From positions 36,001 through 100,000 of the forward strand of contig CAUYUJ010020680.1 in assembly GCA_963575745.1 (NCBI GenBank): 64,000 bases of DNA, read 5' to 3'. Every line of letters begins with the position of its first letter. Position 1 is the first letter of the stretch. Of the stretch, positions 12,388 through 33,150 are shown one piece after another. The DNA is from Prorocentrum cordatum. Lineage: Eukaryota; Sar; Dinophyceae; Prorocentrales; Prorocentraceae. Under the pieces are notes generated by a model that was given only the letters and a program-made list of their open reading frames with translations, was not told the DNA's origin and did not search any database. Both the position numbers and the translations under genes were made by a program.

Positions 12388-12546
12388 TGCTAGGAAGTTT
12401 GTAGTTTCACATAGATATATGATTATATAAAATATAATCTAGACTGTCCTGGAGGATCCAGGAAATCCTGCAGCCCTTTGTTGCTCGAGGAAAAGAGCGA
12501 CCCTCACCTCCCCCCTTTCTCCGCGAGGGGGGTGGGTGCGCGTGCA
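12388..12546 (+). repeat. 3' LTR of Copia-1
   Basis: This is a 159-bp copy of 5537-5695 with no difference visible by eye, including the AT-rich hairpin at 12421-12439. It is followed at once by the target duplication CCAGC (12547-12551). Confidence 0.95.
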
Positions 12547-13829: not shown

Positions 13830-14292
13830 TCAATTCTTACCCACCCCAGCAATTCAGACAATACGATTTGGGCGTGGTAGAAATGCCCGTTTTGGGCCTC
13901 CCCCCCTCGCGCGGTCCATCAACAAGGAACAGTAAGCAGCAAGACGTCAACAGGGAACAGTAGGCAGCAAGAAGCAGAACTGTAACAGTGGAAACTGGAA
14001 GCTGCAACTGCTACAGGAAACTGCGAACCTCCGGCCTACAGCCTGGTGGCCCCGCAAGGGGGCCGGCGGATTTTTCATCCAAAATCCCCTTGTAGGGGGA
14101 CATGCCCGACCTAAGCCTGCTACTCAGGCGAGAGTCCTGTCCTGAAAAGGCACCGCGTCCTTCCAGCGCGGAGCAGGAAGGCGAGCAGGCTAGGGTCAAA
14201 CGGTTCCGCGAGATGCCCAGCGAGCCCTTCGTGAAGCAAGGACTTTCCCCATCCGTGCATGTGTCCCAGAGGTTTACACATAAGCTTCGAGC
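13830..14292. other. Unassigned DNA with a short GAACAGTA(A/G)GCAGCAAGA duplication
   Basis: Two near copies of CAACA(A/G)GGAACAGTA(A/G)GCAGCAAGA lie at about 13919-13973. No gene is supported. Confidence 0.4.
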
Positions 14293-15420: not shown

Positions 15421-15502
15421 GGGAGCCCGACACGGCGAGAACGCGGACATCATTGATACACCTGCGTGACATCAACGACTTTGGCTTCGTGGAGGCCGCT
15501 TG

Positions 15503-15767
15503 ACTTTAAGGGTAGCTCTTTGGGAGATGTTATATAGGATCGGGAGTATAGCTCGCGCGCCGTTGCATTTGGCTCAAGGCACGCGCGCCCTATTTGCCCG
15601 GACACTGCTTATGTTCGCTATGTGCTGGAAAGATCATTACATCGATCTTATCCTATCTTATCCGTCCATTCCCCTTACTGAACCACGCAGTACGGCACGG
15701 GACGCTATTTGCCATCCGATTCCCATAGAATCGGGTGCTATTTGACTTACCATAGTCACTTCAGACT
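15503..15767 (+). repeat. 5' LTR of Copia-2
   Basis: The LTR begins ACTTTAAGGG and ends CTTCAGACT, so it lacks the usual TG...CA ends. Its limits are set by the GCTTG duplication and the primer site at 15768. A spliced-leader-like stretch CCGTTGCATTTGGCTCAAG lies at 15560-15578, between complementary GC-rich arms. Confidence 0.85.
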
Positions 15768-15780
15768 TGGTAGCGGAGCT
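15768..15780 (+). promoter_or_regulatory. tRNA primer binding site of Copia-2
   Basis: TGGTAGCGGAGCT immediately follows the left LTR and matches the Copia-1 site for 13 bases. Confidence 0.85.
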
Positions 15781-17643
15781 GGCCGCACTCTCGTGTGGTC
15801 AGCTCTTGCTCTTCTTATCCTCACGCTATCCGGCACGATCTTCGTGACCAACTACCACCCTGCGCCACCACTCCAACTACATTTACGAGGATCATTTCAA
15901 GAGCAAGAAGCAACACGAGAGGTACGACGTCTAGACAACAACATTGGTACCATATACGCTTCATCACTACGCTACTACCAACCGCTCGGCAACGAGCCAA
16001 AACCGCAGTACTTGAAGCGTAGGCGGGGAGACCCGCAAGATAAAGCGCCTCGTAGACTTGACAAGGCGCTACAAGCCCTACCCCAGCGCGACAACGCGCC
16101 TGATAACCACCCTTATCTTCACAGCCTAGGGCTGGTTATCTTCGCCATCATATGGTTTGCGCTGGGGGCGGCAATCGGACACATGCGCCGAGGACATAAT
16201 AGCACAGATGGGCAAACACATGGCCCATACTGGGACCCTCAAGGCAACGTACCTTTTCGCGCATACGTTTATGAGGTCAACGCGTGGCTAAACGTCACAA
16301 GCGGGCGCATGACGCCACAAGCCCAAGCAGCCGCCATGCAACGCGGCCTGGGTGGCCTAGCGAGGACACTCGCCATGAGGGTACCACCTGACATTATAAA
16401 CTATGGTGCGGACATCGATGGTGTCCACACCGACCCAGTAACATACATTATGTTTCTCTTAAACATGAAGTTCGAACGCCTGGAAGATGAGCGCCAGCTC
16501 ACTTCAGGCACACAGCTCATCGACTTTCATGTGCCTCACGGAGAACGAATCGATGTAACCCTCACTCGGTTCGAGATGGCCCGTCTTGAGGCACAGTCGG
16601 TGGGGTTCGACCTTCCCAACTTCCATCTGCTCACTACTATCCTATTCCGCGCCCTAGGCGTCGGCAACCAGAGAGCCATGCAACTCTTGCAGCCACTCAA
16701 CCACCAAATGCCCCGAACACAACAACAGTATGATGAGTTGTGCGAGAGAATGCGCTCGATAGGCCATTTGTCAGAACGGTCTCCTGGTAACATAGGATCA
16801 GTGTTTGGAAGGGGAAGGGGAACTGGTAGTGGAATTTTCTATACTACCTTAACCACTGAAGCTCAGCCTGGCAACGGGCCCTCAAGCATATGGGCCGACG
16901 ATCCTGGAGAATATATTGCCCTACTAACAGGGGATCGATCGCAACCAAGCTGGGCAACCAGCCCCCCTCCTAGAGAACCTCAACCACACCGTTCCTTATG
17001 GGGTGAAGCGAATCCCCTGAACGACGGTGTATCCACCTACTTGGGAAATGACGATTTCGACTCCGGCACCGACGCCGACGCCATATCATCAGATGGTATT
17101 GAACCTTTAGACTGGTCAGATATCATGCAAATGAAAGGTGACAATCAGCGTGCCGAACACCTGTTCTGGTTATTACAACAGGCGAAGCGGAGGTGGAGGA
17201 GGTTCACACGAAAACCAGTGCGTTGTGTTAGGGGGAGGATACGGAGGAGCTTCAAAGGAAAAGGTAAAGGCAAACGGGGTCGCCGTAGGTTGAATGGACG
17301 AGGCATCGCGGCTTTCCTCCAGAGGCTCTCAGATGATCAGTATGATGAGATATTTTTCGGGGGGAAAGGCCGCGGTAAAGGCCGTAGAGATACCTCAGGC
17401 AAGGGTAAAGGTAGGCGGGGAAACCTGCGAGGTATAGACGGCCAGATCCTAAAGTGCCATGAGTGTGATAGTACCGATCATCTTGTAAAAGATTGTCCAG
17501 CGAAGGGAAATGGAAATGGCAGATCAACCGAAGTCCATTTCGGCTCAAGTGAACCAGTTATTGAATATCTGAGCCTCCAAGATTTTGAGGCCATGGAGCA
17601 GGTATTTTTTCACTTGGGCCAGCAGCATGGACAACTTGGATGA
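15781..17643 (+). CDS. Copia-2 Gag-like region with two hydrophobic segments and a zinc knuckle
   Basis: This frame is open from within the LTR to TAA/TGA near 17643. The first ATG is at 16183, so the upstream part needs an intron or a non-AUG start. Two hydrophobic stretches precede or overlap that point (LVWSALALLILTLSGTIF and LGLVIFAIIWFALGAAIG), which is unusual for Gag. A helical Gag-like core follows (about 16240-16790). Then come an acidic stretch, a Lys/Gly/Arg-rich tail, and a CCHC knuckle CHECDSTDHLVKDC near 17457-17500. Six hairpins of family H2 lie within it. The next frame (ATG 17627) overlaps its last 17 bases. Confidence 0.7.
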   Translation, partial: GRTLVWSALALLILTLSGTIFVTNYHPAPPLQLHLRGSFQEQEATREVRRLDNNIGTIYASSLRYYQPLGNEPKPQYLKRRRGDPQDKAPRRLDKALQALPQRDNAPDNHPYLHSLGLVIFAIIWFALGAAIGHMRRGHNSTDGQTHGPYWDPQGNVPFRAYVYEVNAWLNVTSGRMTPQAQAAAMQRGLGGLARTLAMRVPPDIINYGADIDGVHTDPVTYIMFLLNMKFERLEDERQLTSGTQLIDFHVPHGERIDVTLTRFEMARLEAQSVGFDLPNFHLLTTILFRALGVGNQRAMQLLQPLNHQMPRTQQQYDELCERMRSIGHLSERSPGNIGSVFGRGRGTGSGIFYTTLTTEAQPGNGPSSIWADDPGEYIALLTGDRSQPSWATSPPPREPQPHRSLWGEANPLNDGVSTYLGNDDFDSGTDADAISSDGIEPLDWSDIMQMKGDNQRAEHLFWLLQQAKRRWRRFTRKPVRCVRGRIRRSFKGKGKGKRGRRRLNGRGIAAFLQRLSDDQYDEIFFGGKGRGKGRRDTSGKGKGRRGNLRGIDGQILKCHECDSTDHLVKDCPAKGNGNGRSTEVHFGSSEPVIEYLSLQDFEAMEQVFFHLGQQHGQLG

Positions 17644-18631
17644 GCTCGAGGCGTGCGGCCACGGACTGTACGCGTACTACCTCGAGTACCTCCGCAGATT
17701 TGTTCTCGGAAATATCGAGCTTACGCCTGTGGAGAATGGTGCGCTGGGAAACCAGCCCTTATCTTTCTTCGACTGGATGTTCGGTGACCCAGGCAACATC
17801 ATGGCCTACGAGAGCAGCGACGAGGACGTCACTGTAGAGGCCTCGCCTTCGGAGTCTGACCACAACCTTCGACATCAACCCGACCCTATGCCTGGAAACA
17901 GGCCCACTCCAGTATATCCTCCAAAATATGCCGACCTGATGGAACTAGAACCTCAAGCATTCATTACGGGCGTGCCAGGGGGCCCATATGTACCACCTGG
18001 CTCGCTTGCCCCAGGCGAGTACGGACCGCGCGCGATACTGCAGACCCTCATGCAGATGCACGCTGCATTGGTCGTAGCATATCCCGAGAGTCAAGAGAGT
18101 GTCGAGAGTGGCCACATGATGCTACAAGACACCGATGCCTGTGACGACTCGGAGTTAGTGCTGGCGGCCCTCACTCTTATTGATAGCGTGCACCCTGAGG
18201 ACGTGCAGCGACATGTGTGGTATTCCAGAGGGAGATGGCGCCAAGCCCTTGAAAGGGCCATCTCCATGCGCGGTCAGGCTCTCCCTCCGCCGGGATGGGG
18301 TCTCCAAGCGGCGGGGCTACAGCCTAACCACGCGGCCGTGCGAAATATTACCGGGCCGCCTACGCTCGGTAACGAGCCTGAGCCGACTACAGTGCCGCCG
18401 ACTCCGGGACAGCCGAGCGATGCTCAGACGTTTGTGCGGCAGGGGAACCTGCCCGTCCCGGCTGAACCGATGACCATCGTCATCGGCAACCCTATGTCAG
18501 AAGATGAAGAAGGTGATGGATGTGGGATGTGCGAGGACGAGGCCACCATCCTCATGATGGAAGCCAATGGTGAAGACGAGGAGGTGGATTTCAGCCCCGA
18601 CCGTCCAGACACACCACCACCTGCACAATAA
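17627..18631 (+). CDS. Copia-2 acidic Pro-rich polyprotein segment
   Basis: The ATG at 17627 overlaps the end of the Gag frame in the +1 phase, and the frame runs to TAA at 18629-18631. The product (MDNLDELEACGHGLYAYYLE...) is acidic and Pro-rich, with no domain I recognise, and ends in a run of Glu/Asp and a CGMCEDE motif. Four H2 hairpins lie in it, read as L-GN-Q-P, P-GN-R-P, L-GN-E-P and Q-GN-L-P. It continues in the same phase after the stop, so the stop is probably a lesion. Confidence 0.5.
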   Translation: MDNLDELEACGHGLYAYYLEYLRRFVLGNIELTPVENGALGNQPLSFFDWMFGDPGNIMAYESSDEDVTVEASPSESDHNLRHQPDPMPGNRPTPVYPPKYADLMELEPQAFITGVPGGPYVPPGSLAPGEYGPRAILQTLMQMHAALVVAYPESQESVESGHMMLQDTDACDDSELVLAALTLIDSVHPEDVQRHVWYSRGRWRQALERAISMRGQALPPPGWGLQAAGLQPNHAAVRNITGPPTLGNEPEPTTVPPTPGQPSDAQTFVRQGNLPVPAEPMTIVIGNPMSEDEEGDGCGMCEDEATILMMEANGEDEEVDFSPDRPDTPPPAQ

Positions 18632-19440
18632 CCAATTGTGCCAGACTCCAGTCAGCAGGGAGACCTGCCTGTCCAGGATGTGCCGCCTGCGGCCCCGCAG
18701 GAACCCCCGCCGGCTCCTGTTCAGGCTGCGTCGGCGGCTTCGTCTGATGAGCGCGCCAGGAGGTCTCGCTCTCATCCACGCCTTGGGAAGAACCTCGCCC
18801 GCAAGCACGGCTCCCCCGCGAATGGAGGCAAGCAGGCCCGACAGAGCATGCCGCTCGGCGGGGGGGGTCAGTTGCTCGCCTACAACGACCCTGGGCGTCA
18901 GACGGGTGGGCATTCTGCTTTCGGAAAAGACAACCCAGCCTACAGGGATGCCCAAGGCAGGTCCATACGAGGTGGCTACCAGCTCGCGACGAATATTCGT
19001 CGTCCTGACATAGAGGCAGTACGGGCGCAGCTGCGGAATGTCATTGCAGCGCGCAAACTATACAGACCCAGCGCAGTCTGCGGGCCGTGCTCAGAGCCAT
19101 TTCAGGAGCATAGGCCTGGGTGCCCTGTGGGGCTCAACGAAGGCTTGAGCCCGAATAGAGGCCGCGCTCCTGCCAAGGAGGGTCATCCACCGTTGGTTCC
19201 GATGACTCAAGCAGAGATCGACGAGATCAACCGTCGTCTCGGAACAACGGCTCATAGGAGCCCGATGGCCGAGGAGGTCCAGCCTCCGAGGGGACTTGTG
19301 CCTATGACCCAGGAAGAGAAAGAGGCGCTCAATCGCCTTCCTGGAACGCGGGGAAGCCCGCCTGGCGTCTTCAGTCAGGCCCAACAGCCAGAGATGATGG
19401 ATGACGATGAAGGCTCAGCGAGCCGCAGCAGATGCGGAGC
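18632..19440 (+). CDS. Copia-2 linker segment, function unknown
   Basis: This continues in the same phase as the preceding segment, past its stop codon. It is Pro/Arg/Ala-rich, with a possible metal site CGPCSEPFQEHRPGC near 19079-19123 and two copies of a VPMTQAEIDEINRRLG-like phrase (19195-19245, 19300-19345). Around 19400 the natural reading passes to the next frame. Two H2 hairpins (18655, 19348) are present. Confidence 0.45.
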
Positions 19441-21191
19441 GCAAACGAATAGCAGACGAACGCACCCGCGAGGCAACTCGCCAAATGTTGCTGGAGCCCC
19501 AAAAGATTTATATGAAGGGGGCAAGGAAGCCCCCACTCCAACCGAAGGCCAAGAGCGAAACACCTGCACCCAGGACGCCTTCGGGGGAGAAACAGAAAAC
19601 GTCGGCCCGCTCAGAGGAACTCGGGTTAGATGTGCAGATGGAGATTCCTCGCTCTGAAACGCCGAGGTCACCGACTGGGGCAACTCCGGCACAGAGACCC
19701 GACCCTAGGCAACAACCTCAGGACTCCGTGGATCGTAGACGACCGCCTAGCCGTAGCGGCTCTATCGCCGGCAAGGCCAAGGCTTTCGAGCGTGCAGGGT
19801 TTACCCCTACGCCGGCCTCGCCTGCGGCGGTGCGCTCCAAGAGGTCTGAGGAAGGTGCTCTATCTAGGGGCACCTGGGTGCCTAAGATGAAGGGCAGCGC
19901 CAGCCGAGAAACACTGCGGGGAAACCCGCCAGGCGCTGCAGCTGCAGCATCCTCCTCCTCAGGAGCCGCAGCCTCTTCGGTGACAGAGGCTCCTTTGCGG
20001 GGAAACCCGCCCGAGGATGAGCTGCACCGCCCAGGGGGCACTTCCTTTACTAGCGGGAGTCAGGCTTTGATCAATGATCGACGTGCCCTGCGGAATCTTC
20101 CACCGATGCGCTCGGTGGATGAAGCGTTCATGGAGAGCTGCAGGCAGAAAGGTATTGTCCCGAGACATAACCATACACTCAAGCAGCCTAGTAAATGCCT
20201 AAACAGGATCGGCAGACACGCACCTGACAAACCACGCGATGCCGTGTGGAGCCTTGAGACATTCGATGATCATGATGGATGGGTCAATCTCGACGAGCTC
20301 GTACGTGAGTTTCCGTGGAACAACGGACGTACGAGACAGGACGGGTATAACCCTAGGATGGATGAGGCCAAGATCATCGCCGAGACCTTCTACGGCAGAA
20401 CGGTTGACCAGATGGCTGCCATTATGGTGGCGATCGTTCGCGTCCGCGAGCCGGACGGTGAGGAGAAGCAGCGTCTCCAGTTTCAGGTCTTGATGCGGGA
20501 TTCTGGCAAACCCGACATATTCGTCCGCGCCTCGCAAGGGCTCTCGTGGACGCTCAAGGCCCCTTGGTCGTTGTACAAGTACATTGTACTACACGACAAC
20601 CCTGCTGGGAGACCGGCCCCATACCCCGAGGTTGCCATGCATGGCACACGATGGGCAGCCTTTGAGGGCATCATGTGGTATGGCCTCTCTTGTCGTCAAG
20701 AACACAACGCCAAGAAGAGAGGGACAGGCCGATCACACATCCACTTTGTTCCGACGCTTCGTCGTCGCGGCGTGCAGAGTGGATGGGGCCCCGATTCCGA
20801 GATCGTTATCTTTGTGGACTGGCATCGGGCCCTGAAGGACGGAATCGAATTTTGCTGGTCCGACAATGGGGTTCTCCTATCTGAAGGAAAAGACGGCATC
20901 ATTGAGCCGTATTATATGTCACACGTGGAAGAACTCTCCACGGGTAAACATTGGCGTGACCCAGAATATTTGGGCAATCGCCCTGCACGCGTTTCCACCG
21001 CCATAATGACGGCCCCGAACAGGTGGACCCATGTGGGCAGTGCTAGTGTCAAGCACAAATGGTCTCTTGACCGAGAGGTTAATGATCCTCACGCGGTTCA
21101 TGGTCACAGAGAAGTTGGGGGACCATTACAGCCCAACAGTGCTGGGAAACCAGCCCGAAATCCACCAGATCCTTATGATCAACGAGAGTGA
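19401..21191 (+). CDS. Copia-2 segment with Tpt1/KptA RNA 2'-phosphotransferase-like domain
   Basis: After a charged helix and Pro/Ser-rich linkers, residues about 260-520 (about 20185-20960) match the order of Tpt1/KptA motifs. These are GRHAP with DGWVNLDELV, then VRASQGLS, HGTRW...GLS...SHIHF, DGIEFCWSDNGVLLSEG and IIEPYYM. Family members use NAD+ to remove the 2'-phosphate left by tRNA splicing. The N-terminal Arg-His pair and the Arg of the RAxQG motif are kept, but QGHS reads QGLS. The position usually held by SGMR reads SGWG, so the fourth catalytic Arg appears lost. It may be an RNA- or ADP-ribose-binding relic. This is an unexpected cargo for a copia element. Confidence 0.75.
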   Translation: MTMKAQRAAADAERKRIADERTREATRQMLLEPQKIYMKGARKPPLQPKAKSETPAPRTPSGEKQKTSARSEELGLDVQMEIPRSETPRSPTGATPAQRPDPRQQPQDSVDRRRPPSRSGSIAGKAKAFERAGFTPTPASPAAVRSKRSEEGALSRGTWVPKMKGSASRETLRGNPPGAAAAASSSSGAAASSVTEAPLRGNPPEDELHRPGGTSFTSGSQALINDRRALRNLPPMRSVDEAFMESCRQKGIVPRHNHTLKQPSKCLNRIGRHAPDKPRDAVWSLETFDDHDGWVNLDELVREFPWNNGRTRQDGYNPRMDEAKIIAETFYGRTVDQMAAIMVAIVRVREPDGEEKQRLQFQVLMRDSGKPDIFVRASQGLSWTLKAPWSLYKYIVLHDNPAGRPAPYPEVAMHGTRWAAFEGIMWYGLSCRQEHNAKKRGTGRSHIHFVPTLRRRGVQSGWGPDSEIVIFVDWHRALKDGIEFCWSDNGVLLSEGKDGIIEPYYMSHVEELSTGKHWRDPEYLGNRPARVSTAIMTAPNRWTHVGSASVKHKWSLDREVNDPHAVHGHREVGGPLQPNSAGKPARNPPDPYDQRE

Positions 21192-23262
21192 GGCAGGAAG
21201 CGCGGCTCCAAGCCGTGCTCCAAGCCAAGGGCCTAGTGCCATATCTTGGCAGGTCCTTAGCACCTCAGATCTGGATCAGATCGCGGCCGCTCTAAATCCT
21301 GAGCAGGTGGAACAGCTGGCGGACAGACTGTGCCAGCAAGACCCCTGGGCCGCTGGCCAGGGCGCCATGTCCGCCATGGTGACGCGTAGCCGTCAGGCCA
21401 TGCAGGGACACCTGCCCGTTAATGGACTCAGAAATGATATGCCCGAGCCGCAGGGAGACCCGCAGACGTTCGGCCGCATCTTCGGAGAGTTTGCTCGATT
21501 TGAGCAGATGCCAGGGAGCCCCTCGCATATCATGCACACACCGAGGGGCATGACCCCAGTGGCGACGCCACCAGCGCAGTCTCCGTTTGGGACTCCTGGT
21601 CGATTTGCCACGAATGGCACTCTCATGGAGCGGATCGCTGCGGCCAGAGCTGAGCATGGTACAGCTCTTCTGAACATGATGCCACCTGGTACGCCAACGA
21701 GTTTGCAGGGAAACCTGCCCGGCACTCCAATACACCACCGACCTTTTGCTACTGTTGCTGGAGTGCCTGATGACTACCGCGCAAGGGTGGCAGCTGCGGT
21801 GCAACAGGTGCAGAGTCACAACCTGCCCCACCCGAGTGGTCAGAGGTGGAGGCCAGCCTGGTCCTGGGAGCCAGAGGGTCCGAACCCACGTGGCCCTGCT
21901 CGGCAACGAGCCTTCATCCCTGCCTTCAATGCTCATCCAAGCATGGCTCAGGGCCAGAGGCCAGCGCCAGCACCAATGGATCCGCCACTGTACCCAGATG
22001 GGTCTAGAGTCCCGAACAGATTTGTTCGCGAAATGGCGGACCAGATTCATTGCCTCACGAATGTGCGCTGCAGTGATCAGTCCATGTACCCGCACATGGC
22101 TTTCATGCCTGCACCGACAACGCCAGAGGTGGCCGTCCAGCCTACTGCCCATTCAATATCATCAGGCAGTAGAGGAGTACCAGACTACATCAGACAGACG
22201 TACCACACTCAACAGGCGTGCTTCAGGCGCAGGCAGGCAGTACAGAGCATACGTGACCAAGCACGTGCATCCGCACTTGAGGTCGTGAGGAACAGAGGCT
22301 CACCCATGCGAGGAATCTCGCCAGCCGTGTCGCCCGCAGCCTCCACAACGGCAGCTCCACCGGAGGCATTGGCTCCCGCAGGAGATCCTCCAGCTGCTTT
22401 CATGGACTCCGAAACAGTCCTGGAGCGGCAGCGGCGGGTGTATCCTAGGGTGGCAGATGTGGAAATCTATACTGGGATGGAAGACACCTGCGCGGTATGC
22501 CTCGAGGAGTTTCAGCCGAGGGAAAGCATCTACCGCTTGAGGTGCAACCACCTGTTCCACGAGGAGTGCTGGGACTCGAACGTTGTGGGCCATGTTGCGA
22601 ATCAGCGAGAAGGAGACCCTCGGCAACCAGTATGTGCCATCTGCCGAGCGCCAGGCATCATAGCGTCATCGTTTCCATGGACCGGCTCCTGCACTCAGGC
22701 TCCCGAACAGGCAGCGAGGGAGCTGCGGGAGTTAAGGGGCATGGTGGAGGAGATGACAGCCAATATGCTGGGCAGGCAGACAGCGCAGCCCCAGCAGCGG
22801 GGAAACCCGCCGGAGGAGGTGAGGTCACCGATGGAGACGGGATACTTCGACCAACTTATCCCGATGACGGCGCCTCAGCAGGGAAACCTGCCTAACACTC
22901 CACCTGTGCCGATCCTTCCGACTCATGACGAGCTTGGAGTCGGGCAGGTGGCTCCTCCGATGTCTCCCCAGAGTGGGGGCGGGGCCGAGCTGCCACTGGA
23001 CCCTGAACAGTTGCGAGAACTGCGTGTTCGCCATTTCCAGACCCAGATGGACAATGCGCACACTACGTTCATGTTGGGCGCCAATAATCCTGAGACTGAG
23101 AACTCGTCGTTGGATCTCTCAGACTCATCAGTGGCGACAGCGGCAACAGCAGTCAGGGCCGTCGAGCTCTCAGCCACGAACAATGAGTTCGACGAGTGGT
23201 TGCGATACAGGGATCACCTTGCGAATGAGGGATTGCAGGACATCGCCCTTATTCGTATTTGA
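21031..23262 (+). CDS. Copia-2 segment with RING-H2 finger
   Basis: The frame becomes natural near 21140 and is Pro/Gln/Met-rich and low in structure until 22480. There a C3H2C3 RING appears: CAVC-x14-C-x-H-x2-H-x2-C, about 21 residues, then CAIC (22489-22646). RING-H2 fingers usually recruit E2 enzymes for ubiquitin transfer. The C6-C7 loop is longer than usual. The domain is followed by a short coiled region and Gln/Pro-rich sequence. Seven H2 hairpins lie in this frame. Host-derived capture is likely; activity is unknown. Confidence 0.7.
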   Translation: MWAVLVSSTNGLLTERLMILTRFMVTEKLGDHYSPTVLGNQPEIHQILMINESEAGSAAPSRAPSQGPSAISWQVLSTSDLDQIAAALNPEQVEQLADRLCQQDPWAAGQGAMSAMVTRSRQAMQGHLPVNGLRNDMPEPQGDPQTFGRIFGEFARFEQMPGSPSHIMHTPRGMTPVATPPAQSPFGTPGRFATNGTLMERIAAARAEHGTALLNMMPPGTPTSLQGNLPGTPIHHRPFATVAGVPDDYRARVAAAVQQVQSHNLPHPSGQRWRPAWSWEPEGPNPRGPARQRAFIPAFNAHPSMAQGQRPAPAPMDPPLYPDGSRVPNRFVREMADQIHCLTNVRCSDQSMYPHMAFMPAPTTPEVAVQPTAHSISSGSRGVPDYIRQTYHTQQACFRRRQAVQSIRDQARASALEVVRNRGSPMRGISPAVSPAASTTAAPPEALAPAGDPPAAFMDSETVLERQRRVYPRVADVEIYTGMEDTCAVCLEEFQPRESIYRLRCNHLFHEECWDSNVVGHVANQREGDPRQPVCAICRAPGIIASSFPWTGSCTQAPEQAARELRELRGMVEEMTANMLGRQTAQPQQRGNPPEEVRSPMETGYFDQLIPMTAPQQGNLPNTPPVPILPTHDELGVGQVAPPMSPQSGGGAELPLDPEQLRELRVRHFQTQMDNAHTTFMLGANNPETENSSLDLSDSSVATAATAVRAVELSATNNEFDEWLRYRDHLANEGLQDIALIRI

Positions 23263-24450
23263 CGCTGACGCGGCGCACTACCCGCGAACGGTACACGAGC
23301 ATACGTGATGAGTATGCCAACTGGCGGGAGGAACAGGGCGCTCAAGCCCAGAACGTGTCGTACATCCAGTGCATCGACCTGGCACGTATGGCCGCAGGAA
23401 GGCCAGGTGCCAGCACGACGCGGGGAAACCCGCCAAGGAATACGACCGAACTGCGGGGAACCCCGCCAGACAGCACAGCCGGCACTTCAGAGACAGTGCA
23501 CATCAAGCAGCCTAGTAAGACCTTCCTTGAAGATGGTGGAGAATTCAATCCTCATCGACGCAGGCTCGAAGATTAACATAATGGGAGAAAGTACGAGCCG
23601 CAAGTTCGTCCAGGCTGCTGAGGCACATAATCGTCCTTGTACGTTTGAACCTCGTTCTCGTTTGAACATCCACGGGGTGGGCGAGGGGCCGGCCCCAGCT
23701 GATACCGTGGGCACCTTCAGCATTGCCTGCGAGTGCCAGGGTTCGACTCAGCTCGACTCGTACAAGACGAATCTTGTGTCAGGCTGTGGCAAGGACCTGC
23801 CAGCTATCCTGGGCCTCGACAGTATGCAGGACAAGCGCGCTATTATTGTGCTCGAACGAGGCCAGGAGAAGCTGATATTCCTTGGGAAGGGACAGGTCAA
23901 GATGGAACTTCCCGAGGGCTCCAAGATCATGCCGACAACGAAGTTGCCATCAGGGCATCTGTCAATCAGGTGTGATCGATTCGGAGCTGCGGGGCAACCC
24001 GCCTCGAGTACAAGTACCACATCGTTCCAGACGGTGCTGACAGGCGAGCCGACCCCTGCGCAAGAGCGCCAACAATTGCAGGGAAACCTGCCTCAGGGGT
24101 TGCTGGAGACACTCGCCAAAGCGACGACGAGAGGCGACAGCATCGACGATCTGGAAACGCCTGATTGCTTCGTATCCAGGACACTGGCCCAGCATGGCGG
24201 ACTTGTACCCATGGATGCTGTACGGTCCCGCCGGAAGATAGTGATGGGATATTCGAACCATGAGCTGCAAACTGTTAACGGCGCAAGGTCGAAAGGCCTA
24301 TTGAAGCAGCTGATGGATAATCCATCCATGCTGGCCACGTTTGCGGAGCAATCCGCCTCTGAGGCTACAGCGCGCTGCAGTGCTGAGCTCCAGCATCTGA
24401 GGGAAGCCCAGATGCTGGCAGACGTTGCAGGCGCATCTTCTTTATCTTGA
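23259..24450 (+). pseudogene. Copia-2 linker and aspartic protease, frame-shifted
   Basis: Coding passes from one phase (23259-about 23530, ANWREEQGAQ...) to the next (about 23530-24450). The protease motif reads ILIDAGSKINIMG (about 23546-23585), with DAG in place of the usual DSG/DTG; the catalytic Asp remains. A second conserved patch, AILGLDSMQ, is near 23803-23830. Five H2 hairpins occur (23420, 23453, 23989, 24078 and, just beyond, 24521). The one at 23989 is read in a different codon phase. Confidence 0.65.
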
Positions 24451-24489
24451 AGATGGCAGGGCGACGCTGCCCCCTCGTCGTCTTGCCTA

Positions 24490-25548
24490 GTGACTGAAAG
24501 GCCAAGGGGTAACAAGGACAGCGGGGCAACCTGCCTTAGTAAAAGAGCTTTTGTTATCGAAGATACGAGAGAGGCTTGCGCTGACCTCCGCGTCCGAGGT
24601 TATATCTGTGATCGCATTTCCCACAACGAGCTTATGACGACTGTGGGCGCAGATTGCCTGGGCGCGGTGATCATTGGGGACTATACTCTAATATGGGTTA
24701 GTACCCCGGGCGACTGGTATGTGCGAACCCCAGGAAGAAGAGTGGCCCCACACTGGTCTTGTATTCAAAACCTTTTGATAAAAGCCAAGAAGCTCCGCAT
24801 GAAAATCATAGCGTTTGGCTCCCCAGGATACGTTTGGAAGGTATCCCCAATACGTGGTACTCTGGAAGATCTCAAGTTGACAGTGATACGGATGCGGTTG
24901 TGTCATTTCGGTATCAGGTTTAACATGCAAGACAATGCGCCGAGTGGTACCTATATGCAGGTAGCAACATCAATACGGATTAGCTCTAAGTTGTGGGCAT
25001 GTACGTGCAAATTGGCGATGCCACAACATGTGTTGGATTGGTACGGCCAAACGTTACGACATGCCGAATGGCGAGCTCAGACACGCATCACACTCATCCG
25101 TCACCTCAACGGCAAAATCCTGGGAAGCAGCACTACGCACGGAAACGTGCCGATATATTTGAACACCTATACACGTACGGATCACAACATCCATCACTAT
25201 GTGACGACCAACAAGGGAGGACCGAAATGGTCTGATGTTATCCGACGTGTAACAATTAACCTGGATACCAATGCGGTTATTCAGGATATCGCAGTAGCCG
25301 GTCAACCAACAGGATATGATTGGCATGCACCACTACCTACAGGGGTTGCCAACATCAGTACACGGATGTACTGGCAGCCCGAGGAACCGGTCATGCTCGG
25401 AAGCGAGCCCACTCAATCACCGCAGCAACTTAGACGCGTCGTCATAGATGACTGTCCTTCTCCCCTCCCGACTCTGGAGATTGAAGCGTGCACCCACTCA
25501 TCAACGACGATGGGCACACAGACCGGTGAACAAGACGAGCAAGCCTGA
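24490..25548 (+). CDS. Copia-2 module of unknown function, weakly methyltransferase-like
   Basis: The frame has a globular-looking sequence with IWVSTPGDWYVRTPGRR, IIAFGSPGYVWK, RLCHFGIRFNMQDNAPSGTY and a CTC segment. The order of these patches recalls the second half of C5-methyltransferase-like domains (a Pro-Cys loop, an ENP-like strand, then a CxFG...KPT-like element), but the key residues are absent. I treat it as unknown. It precedes a clearer methyltransferase-like module. Confidence 0.4.
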   Translation: MTERPRGNKDSGATCLSKRAFVIEDTREACADLRVRGYICDRISHNELMTTVGADCLGAVIIGDYTLIWVSTPGDWYVRTPGRRVAPHWSCIQNLLIKAKKLRMKIIAFGSPGYVWKVSPIRGTLEDLKLTVIRMRLCHFGIRFNMQDNAPSGTYMQVATSIRISSKLWACTCKLAMPQHVLDWYGQTLRHAEWRAQTRITLIRHLNGKILGSSTTHGNVPIYLNTYTRTDHNIHHYVTTNKGGPKWSDVIRRVTINLDTNAVIQDIAVAGQPTGYDWHAPLPTGVANISTRMYWQPEEPVMLGSEPTQSPQQLRRVVIDDCPSPLPTLEIEACTHSSTTMGTQTGEQDEQA

Positions 25549-25735
25549 CCTACGGAGTCGCGTATCAAACAGAAGGAAAGGCTCAAAGCCGAAAAGGAAG
25601 CAGGCATCAAGCCTCGCCGCGTCAAAAAGCACGTCGAAGACGGAAACGATGATTGCGGTGACGACTTGTCGGGGCTCGGACAGGATCTTATGGCGACCTG
25701 GAGCACTGACGCCCCTGTTTAGCTGATAAGCTCAG

Positions 25736-26420
25736 ATGAGGATGATGACCTGTTCCTTACCCTCCCCACATCTATGCCACGTACACGCTGACATATATAG
25801 CATAGTAGCTACTCTATGCTATGGTCACAATAATTGCGTGGATATGTTGGAGCTTTGTGGAGGTGAGGGTCGTATTTCAGAGCTTGCCTTCTCAAGGGTA
25901 CTTTCCTCAGGAGGCAACTTAGACAAGACCGCATGTGTCGACCTGGGGGATCCCTCGGTGCAGCGAGCTGTAGATCACTACATCGCAATATGCCACGTAC
26001 GAGTAGCCATACTACAGCCCAGTTGCCGCACCACAGGACCACCATCCTACTACAACTACAAAGTCAACCACAGCACTTGGGAACAGCATCGTAAATAATA
26101 TTTGCCACACATAACTTATTGTGGCAAAATAGATGTTACTCAAGATAATGCACGGAGGTGGTTTATACGCGAACAACCCACAGGAATATGGGTGGATGAT
26201 ATTTCCCAATGGAAAGAACTTGCCAACCGACCACGTATCACAGCCGTACACATCGACCAATGTGCGACGGGACTTAAAGATACGGTTGGTGACTATATCA
26301 AGAAGCCGACAAATATCACCAGAAACGACGAGACGATTCTTAAACCCTTTGAGCGACTCAAATGCAACGGTCAGCATGTGCACGCACAACCGTTCAACAG
26401 GGAGCTTTCACTGGCACCAA
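25736..26420 (+). pseudogene. Copia-2 methyltransferase-like module, one in-frame stop
   Basis: Visible patches in order: VDMLELCGGEGRISELAF (a motif-I-like glycine loop), LQPSCRTTGPP (a motif-IV-like P-C segment), FIREQPTGIW (in place of ENP) and DQCATGL...KKPTNITRN. This fits a divergent SAM-dependent DNA methyltransferase fold. A TAA at 26096-26098 interrupts the frame, which continues in phase. Comparable modules occur in the two tyrosine-recombinase elements of this window. Activity cannot be judged. Confidence 0.55.
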
Positions 26421-29400
26421 AATACACTCGACGACTGCAGTCTGCCTTTGTGGAAGCCGTCTATTTGGCGAAAGCCATCGGCACCACGCGCGGAGACGCG
26501 CCTACACGTACTGCGCATGCTTACCCTGCTGACCTTCCTGATCAAGCTGAACCGGGAGAAGGTATGAGACGCATCGGCGATCGTATCGTCCCAAAAGTGG
26601 CTACATGCCCAGCATGCATCGACAACTTCCGAAAGGGCAGTCCCAGCCACAACCGAGACCCTACACAGCGTAAGTATCATGATTCTATCTCTGTATATTG
26701 GCCATGCCCTGCATGCCAAAGGGACCTTACGAGAAGCAAGGGTGTTAATAACCACCTCGACACTGAGCCCGGCAAATGTCGTTTTGCTGAGCCGTTCAAA
26801 CTCCCAGATGATCATGATCCCGAAGGCAACAATGTGCCAGCTTGGTGGAAACCCTTGCCCAAACCGGGGGAGGGCCAAGCTTCAGCATCGGGTGGCCGTC
26901 AGGGCGCTCGCGCCGGGCCACCGCGACCACGAGCCTTTGGGAACGCTGATCCTACATCTGGCGCCAGCAGTTACGATATACTGCGAGACGCGCCCGAGCG
27001 TGGAAACGCGCCTTCCGCGTCTTCTGGCGAGCCGCCACAGGTAGCGGCCCGCCGCGGCCGCCTACAAGGCGTACCACCGCCACCAGATGCAGATGACGAA
27101 GGGGACCGACTGCGGAGAGCTACAAGGAACCCTCTTGCCTCAACCGGCTCGGGGGCTCCACGACTGCCCGACTGGGCGAGATTTGACATCCAACGCAGTC
27201 TGCAAAATCTCCGTAGTCACGAACCTCATGTAATCAAAAAGGAACCCCGTAAACTGCACTTACGGTATCATGCGAAGGAACTCAAGATGAGGCTAATCCT
27301 AGACAGAGTGGGGCTGGATAGCGCTCGACTAAATATGATCAAAGAAATCTGTGACACATGTCGGGAATGTAGAGCATGGGAACGTCCAGGTAATTCGACG
27401 CTGCCTTCTGTAAGCCTTCCTGGAAATTGGCTCGATGAAGGCGAAGTAGATCTCATGTTTTACAAGAAGCGAACCATATTTCATATTATGGACCGATGTA
27501 TTCGCCTGGCAGCAGGCCAAGAGATTTCCGATAGAGAACGTGACACTATACTCGACGCCTACCACTACTGCTGGATTGCCCATCGCGGACCCTTCAAAGT
27601 CTTGTATTCAGATGGAGAAGGCGCCCTAAATAATGACACTGCCAAGGCCATGATGGCGAACAAGGGTACGACACTTCGTATCCGAGCGCCTGGCCAACGC
27701 GCGACCCCGATCGAGTCACGCAACGGCATTCTTAGGGGTACTTTCCATATGATTGAGGAAGAGCTGAACAGACACAACATCCCTGTTGTATTTACTAGAG
27801 TATTGGCTGAAGGCATCTTCGTCACCAACGCCTTCACGTTTTACAACGGAGTATCGCCATACCAAGCACACACTGGGCGACAGCCCTCCTTTCTTCCTCA
27901 TCTCGACACCCTTGACTTCCCTAAGGGACCCGAGACGTCAGGTCACGAACGAGAGCGCCGCGTGAGGGAAGTTAGCCTGGAAGCAATAACTCAAGCCACG
28001 GCGGTAGCTAAGACAAATCGTGCTCTCAGGGCTAAAACGGCCCCAGATGGTGCTCGCCTTTACTCAGCAGCGGACTTGGTCGACTATCACCGACCTACCG
28101 CCATTAAGGACGATCATGGAGGCTGGAATGGCCCGTTTCCTGTGATCCGTAACGTGCCTGAACGAGGACACGTCGTCGTCAAGGCAGGATCACGTGAGGT
28201 AATTGTAATGTATCCTGATGCTCGTCACATGTTATACATTGAATGCCTCCTTACCAGGGAACTTGGCATGGACAACATGGCCATGGAAACCGTCCTTACA
28301 TATGTGGGACATTCCGGTGCAGGGAAACCTGCCAAAGTCTTTGGCTATATTCCAGAGTACAAGGGAAACCTCAATCTTTCGGACGACAGCAAGTTTCACC
28401 CGCGCGTACATCTTGCACTACAGTATCTCGTGCGAAATTATTTCGGAGTTGAACGTGTAGTAGCAGTTAGACTGGCCAAGAGCGTGTCTAATTTACCCGC
28501 AGTACAGTACGCCACCGGGTCTACACTGATCCACTACGACAACGATGTCAACCCAGCCTTCCACTATTATGAGTGTGTGGGCACCGGCCTGAACATCCCT
28601 CAAATCACTGGTAGCACTCACTCCAGACTCATCCAGTGCTTGACTTCACATTTTCTTTCCTCAGGATTTCATGACGACCTTGCCAAGTATCAGCACTTGG
28701 GCACAACGCCTGGAGAACACGACCAGCCTGGAGACAGGCCTCCACCAGACACCCCAGGTGCCTCATCACCAAGTGAAGGTCGCCTGTTTACAATCTACGA
28801 AGAAAACGAGGAACATGACATCGAAGCTATGATGATGGAGGAGTGGTACGATGAGTTACGTATGGACCGCCATCCCACAACGGTTACCGACGATCATCTC
28901 TACTGCGTCCCAACAAGTATGCTGCCCGACCAATGTGTTCTGGTCTCAGCATCCGTGGACGAAGAAGATATCGTAGTGTCGGAAATGCTCGGAGACGAGC
29001 CTGAACCACAAGAGCCCTGTCTTGTCTCTCTATTCTCAACCACACCTGACGAGGGCTATTCTCTTGACAGTGATGAATATGGTCCTTATGTTGAGTTATG
29101 TTTTACACCAGAAATGTCAAAGGTAGTGTTAGATCAGACCCACCTTGCACAGCTCGAAACTGACATGGTCGCAACGATGAGAGTATACATAGCATCGGCT
29201 GCTAAACGTGCTGTGGTAGTCAAGGAAGACGACCTACTCACCAAAGCCGACATAGCAGCACACCCTAAAGAGGTTAGTGAAGCTTTGTACACCGAACTCA
29301 AGATCTGGCTTGATAACCGGTGCTTTGAGATGTATGACCTATCTGTAGTTTCCAACATCATGACATCCAGATATGTATACAAATGGAAGTTTGTGAAGGT

Positions 29401-29476
29401 AGGCACCGAGAACGTTAAAACCATCCGTCTCAGACTTGTCCTTCGTGGATTTAGGACACGGACGCGTTCGATGTAG
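26421..29476 (+). CDS. Copia-2 integrase and N-terminal RT
   Basis: A Cys/His cluster (ATCPAC, WPCPACQRD, NNHLDTEPGKC; about 26595-26780) and a Pro/Arg-rich linker come first. The integrase zinc site follows (a His-rich LHLRYHAKEL region and CDTCREC near 27350-27370). The catalytic core is next, with Asp in EVDLMFY (27447), Asp in YSDGEGAL (27605) and Glu in ESRNGILR (27714). A long acidic linker leads into RT, which begins at SRYVYKWKFV...IRLRLVLRGF. The frame stops at TAG near 29476, where RT continues in another phase. H2 hairpins lie at 26488, 26998, 28319, 28726 and 28987. Confidence 0.75.
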
Positions 29477-30945
29477 AAACCTTCTCAGGAACTGCTCGAC
29501 GGCAGTCCCAGGCTCCTGGCAAGTGAGGCGGCGTGCCATCCAGAATGGATCTTAGCATCCATGGATATCGACAAAGCGTTCCTCCAAGGTCTGACCTATG
29601 AGGAACTTGCTCATGCCACCAGCGAAGAAACTCGCATGGTTTGCTTCGCTCTTCCACCAGGAAGCGCCCAGGTGCTTCGTACACTGCCAGGCTTCTCTTC
29701 TTACGATGAAAGCCGACTCTGCCTCGGGTGCCTCAAGCCAGGGACGGGTGCAAAGGACGCCCCAAGAGCGTTCCCCCTCAAGCTTCGTACGACCACGCGA
29801 GCTATAGGCCTCGCACCGACAAGTTACGATCCTGAGTTTGAATTCAGTCAAGATCTGTTAACAGCAAAACATGTCGACGACATCAACATGACAGGCCTAG
29901 AGGAAATGTAGATGACTATGTACAACGTGTCGAAAAGGTGTTTGGTAAATGCAAGCTCAACAAACATTCTTATACGAACTGCGCCGTTCGCTACACTAAG
30001 AATGACCAAGGGGATGTGATCATGGATCAGGACGAGTACATTAAACAACTACGTCCTATTACACACCCCGAACTTACGGGAGCGGCGGCTGACGCCAAAG
30101 CTACCAAACTCATCGCCGACATGTTCGTTAGTCTGCGAGGAGCTCTCGCCTATGCCCTTCTTACTCAAGTCTGGCTTTTGGTGTATGTGGTCTCTCTCCA
30201 GAAGAATCAAGAGCCCGACAACTTACAAGTCAGACGACTGAATGCTGTGGCGCGAAAGCTGATCAGCAGCCCGAAACGCATCACCTCCCCTCGGATGAAA
30301 CCGACGAGCGAAGTAGATATGCACAGTGATTCGGGGTATCGGAAGCTCACCGGGGAGGAAGACGATGAGACTAAGGGCTACGGCATACGTGGGGCTAACG
30401 TATTACGTCGAGGACACTCGCCTCAAGGCAGATCCGTCATCCACCTTTGCGGCGGACTATGTAAATCACACCGACTGCAGGTGAGATCCAGCTATGCCGC
30501 TGAGGCACTTGCAGCTGCACACAACCTTGATGAATGTTACCCTACGCTCATCGCTCTCTACGAGCTCAAGGCAGGGGCCCTGACTCCACGACAACTGCGA
30601 GATATGCGTGAAGTTGGAGGCCTAGCTATCAAAGTATCCCTTACCATAGACGCTGAGTCTGTGTACAAACCGCTAGCCAGCAAAGATCTTAAGATACCGA
30701 CGGAACGGACTTTGCTGGGACATATCAGCTGGATACGTGAGTTGATGGATATAGGTATAGTGCATAACGTGCAGTGGTGTGATACTAGAGACATGACCGC
30801 AGATGGGCATACAAAGGAGAGTATCGATCGGGAGCTGCCTTTGGAGGTGATGTCAGGTACTCAGTCATTTAAGTATGACGTGAAGCAGTTTGTTCCCTTT
30901 CGGGGTCCTGAGAACAGAAACAAGCCTAAGTCAAATCAGTTTTAG
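29465..30945 (+). pseudogene. Copia-2 RT (remainder) and RNase H, frame-shifted
   Basis: After DAFDVETFSGTAR in one phase, RT continues at 29545-29911 with SMDIDKAFLQG (motif A Asp present), LKPGTGAKDAPRAF and KHVDDINM (the YxDD box as HVDD). Another phase change leads to 29938-30945: the RT thumb/connection, then RNase H with MHSDSGYRK, SSYAAEALAAAH, TIDAES and WCDTRDMTADGHTK. The D-E-D-D set is still visible. At least two frame changes make this copy unable to give an intact RT. Confidence 0.75.
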
Positions 30946-31321
30946 TCTGTCCTTGTTGCCCCCGCGGTCCAGTCTGCCAGCATGGGCGCCTAATACAGAG
31001 GCGCCCTCCTAGTTCCTCGGAAACGAGCCTTACTTTTCACGCTTGCTAACGAGCCTGTTCAGATTGATTCAGGCTCTTTGCTTTAATACCCTTTTGCTCG
31101 GAGAGGTATAGCCTGTTTGGCTTACCTCTAGCCGGGCCGATAGCCCTTTGATGTTCAAGGGGCTATCTTGCGTATGCGTGAAATGCTTTGCGAGGAAACT
31201 GGCCTTATAGTCTGGTGTTAGGCCAGACTGTACGCACTGTTTTTCTTGCAAACAGTCGTGCGCGCGGCCTTTGTAGAGCCTAACGGCTGCGCGGCTATAC
31301 TCACCGTCTCCTCCTCTCCCG
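30946..31321 (+). other. Hairpin-packed 3' UTR of Copia-2
   Basis: Consecutive inverted repeats fill the region. They are GGGCGCC/GGCGCCC (30984-31006), two H2 units (31016, 31041), GAGCCTG/CAGGCTC (about 31051-31077), AGAGGTA-AGCC/GGCT-TACCTCT (about 31102-31129), ATAGCCCTTTGA/TCAAGGGGCTAT (31140-31166), AGTCTGG/CCAGACT (about 31209-31229), ACTGTTT/AAACAGT (about 31236-31257) and a GC-rich arm pair near 31261-31294. The region ends in the pyrimidine-rich stretch GTCTCCTCCTCTCCC rather than a polypurine tract. Confidence 0.75.
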
Positions 31322-31587
31322 ATTTTAAGGGTAGCTCTTTGGGAGATGTTATATAGGATCGGGAGTATAGCTCGCGCGCCGTTGCCTTTGGCTCAAGGCA
31401 CGCGCGCCCTATTTGCCCGGACACTGCTCGTGTTCGTTACGTGTTGGAAAGATCATTACATCGATCTTATCTTATCTTATCCGTCCATTCCCCTTACTGA
31501 ACCACCACAGTACGGCGCCGGACGCTATTTGCCATCCGCTTCCCATGGAGTCGGATGCTATTTGACTTACCATAGTCACTTCAGACT
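31322..31587 (+). repeat. 3' LTR of Copia-2
   Basis: This 266-bp copy of 15503-15767 has about 16 differences by eye (roughly 94% identity), clustered in the second half. The spliced-leader-like stretch is CCGTTGCCTTTGGCTCAAG at 31379-31397. It is followed by the target duplication GCTTG (31588-31592). Confidence 0.85.
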
Positions 31588-33150
31588 GCTTGGGCCGTCT
31601 TGAGGCCTGGATGCGTCTTGGGCGAACCTGGAATCTTCTTGGACCTTCTTGGGCCGTCTTGGAGACCATCTAGTTCCATCTTGGGCAGTCTTGGAGGCCA
31701 TCGTACGCTATTTTGGTCATCTTGGAAGCGAGATTTCAGGGTTTTCTGGGCTCTTCGGAGTGGCTGGAGGAGACTGCATTTTGAACGTTTTTGGAAGGGC
31801 CCAACCGGCCAGTTGCCACTAAGCACGCTGTGCACCCCTCTGCTAGCAAACGCGTGGCGGCGGATCGAAGTCGCCTACGGCGAATCACCGCCACCCCCTG
31901 CCTGTTGGAATCGCCCATGTGGCCGAGCGTTGTGGCAAGAGCTCTGCCAAGCTACCGGGCCATGTGTTCCCACAGTTGTTGTGGGAATCTTTCGGGGAAC
32001 ATTTGGGGGAGGATGGCGGGGAAGATCAGGAGGAGGAGGAGGAGGAGGAGGAGGAGGAGGAGGAGGAGGAGGAGGAGGAGGAGGAGGAGGAGGAGGAAAA
32101 GGAGGGGGCATTTTGGGAGCCTCTGGGGGCACTCTTGGGGCCTCTTGGAGGCATCTTGGGGGCCTTCTTGGGCCTCTTGGAGGCGATGGGGGCTTTTCCG
32201 GGGCCTCTTGGGCCGTCTTGACGCTGTCGGAAGCCGTTTTAGGGGCCTCTCTGGGCCGACTTGGGGCCCTCTTGGCGTGCTCCAGGGCCGTCTTGGAGGC
32301 CATCTTGGGCATCTTGGAGGCCTCTTGGGCCGACCAGGGGCCGTGTTGGGGGCCTCTTGGGGGCCTCTTGCGCCGTTCTGGGGTCATCTTTGAGGCCTCT
32401 TGGGGGATCTTGGGGCGATCTTTGGGCCGTCTGCCATCGGAAGGCAGAAACAGCAAATGCCAGCATCCTTGAAAAGCCTTCGGACAATCAGTGATTTTGG
32501 TTTCTTCGGGCCTTCCTGGAGGCCCTCTTGGTGGCCTCTTGGGCCGTCTTGGAGACCTCTTGGGGGCCTCTTGGGCCGTCTTGGGCCATCTTGGAGCCAT
32601 CTTGGGCCGTCTTGGTGGGCTCCTGGCCCATCTGATGCCGTCGGAAGCCGTCTTTGGGGCTTCTCTGGGCAGACTTAGGGCCCTCTTGGCGTACTCCGGG
32701 GCAGTCTTGGAGGCCATCTTAAGCGTCTTAAGAACCTCCTAGGCCGTCTTGGGGCTCCTTGGGGCCGTCTTGGGGGTCTCTTGGGCCGTCCTAGGACCAT
32801 CTTGGGGGCCTCTGGGGCGATCTTGGGGCGATCTTTGGGGGCTCTTGGGCCGTCTCAGGCCGTTGGAAAACCGAAAAGAAGCAAATGCCGAAATCCTCGA
32901 AACATCAAAGGAAACCACTGATTTTGGCTCCTTCGGGCTCTCCTGGAGGGTGTCTTGGGGACATCTCGGGAGCCTCTTGGGCCGCTGAGGGCCATCTTGG
33001 AGGCTTCTTGGGCGGACTCGGAGTCATCTTGGCGCCGTTTTGGGCCGTTCTTCGGTAAACTTGGAGGCAACGCGGACCATCTTGGGCCATCTTGGAGGCC
33101 ATTTCGGGCCAACGTGTCCATCTTTGAGGCCATCTTGACCGTCTTGGGCA
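31588..33150. repeat. Large degenerate GGCCATCTTGG minisatellite with higher-order units
   Basis: Phrases such as GGGCCGTCTTGG, GGCCATCTTGG and GAGGCCTCTTGGG are repeated throughout, interrupted by (GGA)n at 32029-32097. A larger unit of about 415 bp recurs: the segment around 32405-32530 (GGCGATCTTTGG...AGCAAATGCC...TGATTTTGG) matches 32820-32945. The minus strand gives long Pro/Lys/Arg-rich open frames purely because of the repeat. Confidence 0.75.
31825..32030. repeat. Diverged dispersed repeat, partner of 12575-12790
   Basis: This shares CACCCCTCTGCTAG, GGATCGAAGTCGCC, CGAATCACCGCCACCCC and the later GGGGAACATTTGGGGGAGGA with the first copy. It leads straight into the (GGA)n tract. Confidence 0.55.

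Follow-up and report, generated by a model that had tools for sequence, protein, structure and literature searches.

A copia-type element in the Prorocentrum cordatum window

The window analysed here is a stretch of 64,000 nucleotides from the dinoflagellate Prorocentrum cordatum (assembly GCA_963575745.1, contig CAUYUJ010020680.1, positions 36,001 to 100,000 of the forward strand), and all positions given below are counted from its first letter. It contains a long terminal repeat (LTR) element of about 16 kb on the + strand, at 15503-31587, through which a short hairpin with a GNRA tetraloop is repeated about 40 times. The element is bounded by a 5′ LTR at 15503-15767 and a 3′ LTR whose aligned stretch is 31321-31587; the two agree in 251 of 267 alignment columns (15502-15767 against 31321-31587), with 15 substitutions per 266 aligned bases. 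The outer ends are flanked by a target-site duplication of 5 bp, GCTTG, at 15498-15502 and 31588-31592, which is the usual length of this duplication in Ty1/copia elements.

The pol region (24478-30981, +), covering integrase, reverse transcriptase (RT) and part of RNase H, is homologous to the proteins designated P0001-P0029 and is interrupted in this copy by stops and frameshifts. No Pfam match to RVT_2 or rve was obtained with the window's own pol open reading frames (ORFs). The Ty1/copia arrangement of an integrase upstream of RVT_2 is seen by homology, as the window pol matches P0005, P0019 and P0003; RVT_2 was scored in the first two and P0003 has rve upstream of RVT_2, partly below the Pfam cut-offs. 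The LTR pair, the short duplication and the pol homology support a copia-type LTR element, as the sequence-only reading, made earlier from the letters of this DNA, had proposed.

Upstream of pol a gag-like segment at 17188-17496 (+) comprises an Arg/Lys-rich stretch (17188-17430) and a CCHC knuckle (17455-17496), and is a candidate RNA-binding partner of the hairpins; the Pfam match of the zinc knuckle is weak (E 0.0014; 19.2 bits, the cut-off being 27). The same part of the element encodes a domain resembling Tpt1/KptA RNA 2′-phosphotransferase (20460-20888, +; Pfam E 1.5e-19, and comparison with Tpt1 in the PDB) and a RING finger (22489-22647, +; Pfam), an unusual cargo for a copia-type element. 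The RING-bearing ORF had no homologue among the 7994 candidates scored.

The hairpin unit

The unit had been described as GCNNG-GNRA-CNNGC, occurring about 37 times and usually followed by C. The strict 14-nt pattern, searched as GCNNGGNRACNNGC, has 31 matches in the window, all 31 on the + strand and none on the − strand; 30 lie within 15984-28987, one lies at 31190 and none was found elsewhere in the 64 kb on either strand, so that the element carries them all. Twenty-nine of the matches, spanning 15984-28987, are fully paired (24 by Watson-Crick pairs only), and those at 21450 and 31190 have one unpaired position each. The loops are GAAA in 15, GCAA in 7, GAGA in 7, GTAA in 1 and GGAA in 1 of the 31, the first three prevailing as had been noticed before. 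A relaxed search gave 45 candidates. Ten of these keep the stem intact and differ in one loop base, which is more than the background (4 on the two strands of the remaining window together); the four with further losses do not rise above that background. A fair count of the real units, loop-variant and one-mismatch copies included, is about 40, close to the earlier estimate.

Position 15 is C in 27 of the 29 paired units and in all seven of those read outside the common codon phase, the other flanking positions carry at most 0.46 bit, and position −1 could pair with base 15 in 1 of 29 units. For these reasons the unit is 15 nt long with an unpaired 3′ C, independently of the reading phase, and longer stems in the window were rejected. 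Regular spacing was also rejected, since the intervals (mean 346, coefficient of variation 0.83) reveal no fixed period; the density is about one unit per 350 nt. Local tandem spread was dismissed likewise, neighbouring units sharing a stem in 5 cases against 4.3 expected. Rfam 15 gave no match at the gathering score in the window.

All the units lie on the + strand. The first of them are GCTCGGCAACGAGCC at 15984-15998 and GCGGGGAGACCCGCA at 16023-16037, followed by the loop-variant GCGCG-ACAA-CGCGC at 16086-16100. Fully paired matches to the strict pattern that are read in the common phase follow at 16866-16880 and 17415-17429 (each with one G-T pair, the latter just upstream of the zinc knuckle), 17743-17757, 17890-17904, 18364-18378, 18439-18453, 18655-18669, 19916-19930, 19997-20011, 21705-21719, 22797-22811, 22878-22892 and 24078-24092, and the match with one unpaired position is at 21450-21464. 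The further loop-variant units from the relaxed search are GCGAG-GACA-CTCGC at 16360-16374 and those with the loops GAAG (19348-19362 and 25395-25409), GACA (21402-21416), GAAT (22308-22322) and GAAC (23453-23467). The remaining units are located below, where they are discussed.

Pairing and covariation exceed chance

The check that had been proposed for the pattern, a search with enforced complementarity in shuffled controls, came out in its favour. In 200 dinucleotide shuffles of 15501-31500 the pattern was matched 0.225 times on average and a paired unit occurred 0.035 times (maximum 1), as compared with the 29 paired units observed, and chance and base composition were rejected as the origin of the units. 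When the inner 3′ arms were permuted among the 31 matches, 7.8 were paired on average (maximum 17 in 20000 permutations) against 29, which agrees with the earlier claim that the two halves of the stem change together. The variable positions are the two inner pairs, taking the forms G-C, C-G, A-U, U-A and G-U, and the inner stems in the window comprise eight Watson-Crick combinations.

The alignment was reduced to 23 distinct rows. Its share of paired cells is 98.3 % (shuffles: 77.7 %) and its covariation score 0.519 (shuffles: 0.100; slid controls: 0.092 or less), and none of 500 shuffles was as high on either measure. Of the five covariation measures, pairs changed on both sides (2 against 2.0) and further pair types (9 against 7.0, 46/500) did not discriminate, because only two pairs vary. 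A count of every GNRA hairpin with a 5-bp stem in the element, irrespective of the pattern, gave 35 on the + strand, where shuffles gave 1.35, and a single one on the − strand; it is therefore not only the search pattern that makes the outer pairs look fixed. In two other element-like stretches of the window GNRA hairpins number 1-2 per strand, within the range of the shuffles. In predicted folding of 214-nt pieces the hairpin probability exceeded 0.5 in 22 of 29 units; among 58 further tetraloop hairpins of the element with 5-bp stems, a comparison set that is not GC-matched, 16 did so.

Arithmetic from the LTR divergence predicts about 18 changes in the 45 candidates since insertion, against 30 departures counted. 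Decay thus accounts for a good part, not clearly all, of the departures, and this argument is not relied on.

The units are not explained by the encoded protein

The common codon phase reads x-Gly-Asn/Asp-y-Pro in most units. Among the 29 paired units 20 are read in this phase only, 2 are readable in it (19468-19482 and 21141-21155, in one of two overlapping frames) and 7 are off-phase: 16949-16963, 20604-20618 within the Tpt1-like domain, 21898-21912, 23420-23434, 23989-24003, 24521-24535 near the start of the pol ORF, and 28319-28333. The off-phase list given by the sequence-only reading was right for 23989 and 24521, wrong for 19468, and short of five further units. When the codons of the element's ORFs were resampled synonymously (300 trials), a mean of 1.3 and a maximum of 5 units remained against 31 counted in ORFs, this number being 29 units with two counted twice in overlapping ORFs. 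Protein sequence and codon usage were rejected as the cause on the strength of this result, and the earlier statement that protein constraint does not account for the units holds on the same ground as well as by the off-phase and non-coding copies.

Three units (15984, 16023 and the loop-variant at 16086) precede the first in-frame ATG at 16183. The stretch before this ATG is likely a leader, and the frame upstream of it is open. In the stretch from the last long ORF to the 3′ LTR, where two copies had been reported, there are three degenerate ones, at 31015-31029, 31041-31055 (both from the relaxed search) and 31190-31204 (strict pattern, one unpaired position), as compared with 0.09 expected in 375 nt.

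Within the Tpt1-like domain the alignment to solved Tpt1 has no gap at the unit at 20604, the similarity being low. The idea that 24521 is off-phase merely through decay of the frame was dropped, since the frame open through 24521 continues into pol and motifs of the relatives adjoin it upstream: their RGNAH, RGNVH, RGNAT and PGNRI align to the window RGNK codons at 24505-24516 and not to the unit itself.

Related elements compared as proteins

Each protein search scored only roughly 8000 candidates sharing most words; the searches gave four, then 27 proteins. No DNA of the relatives was found in scans of viral contigs and genome contigs. In the viral contigs a query with one 15-mer gave at least 120 loci, and among the matches listed four hold two units and none more, so that none of these loci forms an array. 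The close relatives counted here are 22 pol proteins (P0001 and P0005-P0025) of the same copia clade; P0002-P0004 and P0026-P0029 were excluded from the counts at variable sites and at site 28987 as distant or partial. The distant partial match P0028 comes from the dinoflagellate Effrenium voratum, and the Ty1/copia-type clade that would carry the hairpins probably belongs to dinoflagellates. At the protein level a motif xG[N/D]y was scored by whether its flanking codons can be reverse complements. Motifs with this property recur in the 22 pol proteins, some of them at sites of window units and with other stems.

The best orthologous site with exchanged stems is that of the unit at 28987-29001 (LGDEP). 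The motif is present there in 16 of 23 rows, the window included, the other seven lacking it or being cut short. Of the 16 rows, twelve are complementary when the codon has to begin with C and 13 when any codon is allowed (shuffle mean 3.8; none of 20000 shuffles reached 12), and the complementary pairs are of five types: L/E, H/V, P/R, R/S and R/T. In the relatives, the next codons outward are complementary in 8 of 15 rows (shuffle mean 3.7, P 0.01). Over the variable sites 33 of 99 motifs are complementary against 15.1 expected (0/20000 as high), and 22 of 84 against 10.8 (6/20000 as high) when each combination of site bin and pair type is taken once. The control classes xG[A/E]y, xG[K/R/Q]y, xG[V/I/L]y, xGHy and x[S/P/A/E][N/D]y gave no clear excess of complementarity.

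At four further pol sites at least one relative has the motif with another stem. The unit at 25137-25151 (HGNVP; strict pattern) is aligned with RGNV of P0005; that at 26488-26502 (RGDAP) with RGNAP of P0005 and HGNVA of P0016, P0011 having HGNVH in the same linker; at 26998-27012 (RGNAP) P0011 has HGDVP and P0013 RGDVH; and at or near 28726-28740 (PGDRP) there are HGDVH in P0011, RGNAN in P0013 and PGDRI in P0018. The pol-region units lie mostly in variable linkers. As the linker alignment is loose, exact orthology can be considered firm, by these alignments, only for site 28987. A degenerate copy at 30408-30422, TCGAG-GACA-CTCGC (RGHSP), has lost the outer pair where P0001 has RGNAP.

The off-phase unit at 28319 (AGKPA) replaces (A/S)GKTP or similar, found in most relatives, and in 25 of 26 matches no gap falls within its five codons; it therefore originated in place by substitution. 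The relatives point to a second route. P0019 has eight PG[N/D]R motifs, five of them as DPGNRI, a peptide whose codons allow a 7-bp stem capped by a GNAA loop, and P0018, 76 % identical to it, has four. Two of the extra motifs of P0019 are in-frame insertions of 8-9 residues relative to P0018 (positions 21 and 1127), that is, insertions into empty sites, of which 28319 is not a case. Judged by these alignments, P0019 clearly acquired units through short in-frame insertions, and units arise by this route as well as by substitution.

Upstream of the integrase region P0005-P0019 share a conserved stretch with the consensus ELCGG...ISQVAFRRGL...TGCDLG...LQPNCR. Its resemblance to an S-adenosylmethionine (SAM)-binding methyltransferase fold is an impression only, and P0005, P0011 and P0019 gave no Pfam match to a SAM-binding methyltransferase.

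Other features of the window

A second copia-type element occupies 5528-12546, where repeats that are 98 % identical enclose an open frame of 2038 amino acids matching gag and RVT_2 weakly; it contains no hairpin unit by the strict pattern. At 52194-59366 direct repeats flank an ORF of 1559 amino acids with a phage-integrase-type (tyrosine recombinase) domain, and this is perhaps a DIRS-like element. The window also has a tandem array with a period of 73 bp (13101-13841), two dispersed similar stretches, 81-87 % identical and about 9.2 kb apart (35046-35212 and 44240-44407), and a hairpin TTCGA-GGAA-TCGAG in three copies 54-61 nt apart at 45022-45150, apparently inside a diverged tandem repeat.

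Interpretation

Selection on the units at the level of RNA is very probable. A function in RNA is favoured because the units occupy one strand only and are found ahead of the first in-frame ATG as well as downstream of the last long ORF. Selection on RNA pairing is favoured because one orthologous site has exchanged its stems and the unit at 28319 arose in place. In the mechanism that we propose, the genomic RNA would carry dispersed short cis-acting hairpins with the core CNNG-GNRA-CNNG, which in the window takes the form GCNNG-GNRA-CNNGC with the unpaired 3′ C, and a reader protein would recognise the GNRA loop and the fixed base pairs, binding many hairpins at once. The likeliest reader would be the element's own Gag, with its basic stretch and CCHC knuckle, which by analogy with other systems is the most natural candidate. 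Binding of Gag could select, condense or package the genomic RNA of about 16 kb, as with the dispersed packaging signals of single-stranded RNA (ssRNA) viruses. One feature expected of such signals is present, namely many hairpins of a shared motif across the genomic RNA. Pairing across the relatives, read through the protein-level proxy, is seen in 12 of 16 rows at site 28987 and is mixed in the broader tests, and the candidate partner Gag has by its sequence the basic stretch with CCHC. The complete explanation, in which the hairpins act throughout the clade and Gag binds them for selection, condensation or packaging of genomic RNA, has in our judgement an even chance of being right; roles in packaging, dimerisation, translation and defence against silencing cannot be told apart by sequence alone, and docking or RNA stability are further possible roles.

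Several results weigh against this explanation. The covariation at nucleotide level comes from one element, in one broken copy, and 7 of the 29 units fold with a probability below 0.5 in 214 nt. Outside the element, 38000-49000 on the + strand has 6 GNRA hairpins against 1.8 in shuffles (maximum 5), three of them being one repeated sequence. Taking each x/y type at site 28987 only once, in 15 rows from which P0015 is missing, leaves 8 types, of which 5 are complementary where 1.9 are expected (P 0.02); the rows with HGNE, HGNT and PGNP break the pairing, and TGNG needs a codon not starting with C in order to pair. The de-duplicated test is weaker without P0018 and P0019 (17/73 against 10.6, 308/20000 as high). 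Comparison of related copies, which the sequence-only reading had suggested as a check, agrees with it, at the protein level, at site 28987 and fails for the narrow motif xG[N/D]yP, complementary in 8 of 42 cases against 5.8 by permutation (maximum 12). The control xG[S/T]y exceeds its shuffles (6/39 against 1.8), which is not fully explained. An excess is also seen for xG[S/T/H/Q]y followed by a C-type codon (20/97 against 8.6), probably because stretches like LGTEL are conserved. Among the more distant relatives, xG[N/D]y followed by a C-type codon occurs 12 times and is complementary in none. Close to 28319 there is a gap within 30 nt in 22 of 26 matches, the five codons being spared save for one exception, and the units within P0019 are alike, as copying would produce, two of them being insertions.

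The earlier suggestion had left the choice between a mobile palindrome and RNA structures. A tiny selfish palindrome, of 15 nt here and about 24 nt in P0019, might multiply within the element, for instance by template switching of RT, and be tolerated in linkers. The in-frame gains of P0019 over P0018 are what this predicts, as are the extra residues that P0011 and, less clearly, P0012 have with a unit where most relatives have none, the likeness of the units within P0018 and P0019, the lack of flank conservation beyond base 15 and the confinement, within the window, to a single element and a single strand. Copying, however, gives no compensating changes in the two arms, and there are eight Watson-Crick combinations in the window and five pair types at 28987; the unit at 28319 arose without insertion, and that at 20604 shows no gap against solved Tpt1, at low similarity. 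We consider a purely selfish origin unlikely: it fails on the compensating stems and on the in-place origin, although copying clearly helps the unit to spread. The evidence favours selection on RNA pairing, even though insertion has clearly added units in P0019.

A different role in RNA would need no protein, the GNRA loops docking into helical receptors within or between genomic RNAs and leading to compaction or dimerisation. The loops themselves, the GC-rich stems and the density of the units would suit such contacts, but the second and third loop bases vary and the unpaired 3′ C is left unexplained, and docking seems improbable to us. Slightly less credit is due to the proposal that the hairpins are signals for ribosome pausing or co-translational folding between domains of long polyproteins. 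The placement of the pol-region units mostly in variable linkers and the predominance of one codon phase (20 to 22 of 29) speak for it; on the other hand, some units lie outside the long ORFs or before the first in-frame ATG, the off-phase units at 20604 and 28319 are within aligned domains, and a fixed GNRA loop with fixed pairs would, by reasoning, be needless for pausing. A peptide-level repeat, an xGNyP linker or processing site with codon bias, is hardly credible, for although most units read as this peptide and relatives retain G-N/D in linkers, synonymous resampling destroys the hairpins, x and y covary as complementary codons, and off-phase and non-coding copies exist.

Comparison with known systems

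Phage lambda boxB RNA is about 15 nt long, with a 5-bp stem and a GNRA-like loop, and is bound by an arginine-rich peptide; in contrast to the present units it occurs in one or two copies, acts in bacterial antitermination and is unrelated in sequence. Gag-directed packaging through dispersed hairpins, the mechanism preferred here, has its closest model in ssRNA viruses, whose assembly is mediated by multiple dispersed packaging signals (PMC6281560). Those signals are known from viral capsids, whereas the present units belong to an LTR retrotransposon, share a strict common formula and have a candidate partner only (PMC6281560). Even for yeast Ty1 the choice and packing of RNA by LTR retrotransposons are poorly defined, according to the sections of the paper considered here (PMC8396678). 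Ty1 is likewise a Ty1/copia element whose Gag must choose the genomic RNA and recognises RNA structure, but a single 5′ region (+230-580) has been proposed as its signal, a pseudoknot lying close to the 5′ end, and the term GNRA is absent from the text of the paper (PMC8396678).

Palindromic units inserted in frame in protein-coding genes are known from Rickettsia; they are about 150 bp long, against 15 nt here, and occur across unrelated genes of bacterial genomes, and the passages concerned describe no covarying GNRA formula (PMC10969869). The organelle DNA of Volvox carteri abounds in short palindromic-repeat hairpins with a common loop, which differ in lying in non-coding DNA, in having TAAA/TTTA loops and in not being limited to one element (PMC2670323). 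In the coding palindromes of Nematomorpha mitochondria a hairpin and protein coding are maintained in the same bases; these are perfect inverted repeats of up to 284 bp, and the parts of the paper used here mention no short unit repeated through one element (PMC6649704). Among the matches listed from the open-licence literature, none reports in its title or abstract a retrotransposon with dispersed GNRA hairpins.

About 40 near-identical hairpins with covarying stems form an unusually clear signature of possible multivalent RNA recognition outside viruses, one that can be traced even in the protein sequences of relatives, and the finding suggests that RNA structure shapes protein linkers. We put forward, tentatively, the wider proposition that dozens of copies of one GNRA hairpin tile the leader, the genes and the 3′ end of a class of retrotransposons and evolve under selection for base pairing, their stems shifting between elements together with the reader protein. 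If this is true, the elements would possess a multivalent RNA address code around which their proteins evolve, and the hairpins would be a source of new linker peptides.

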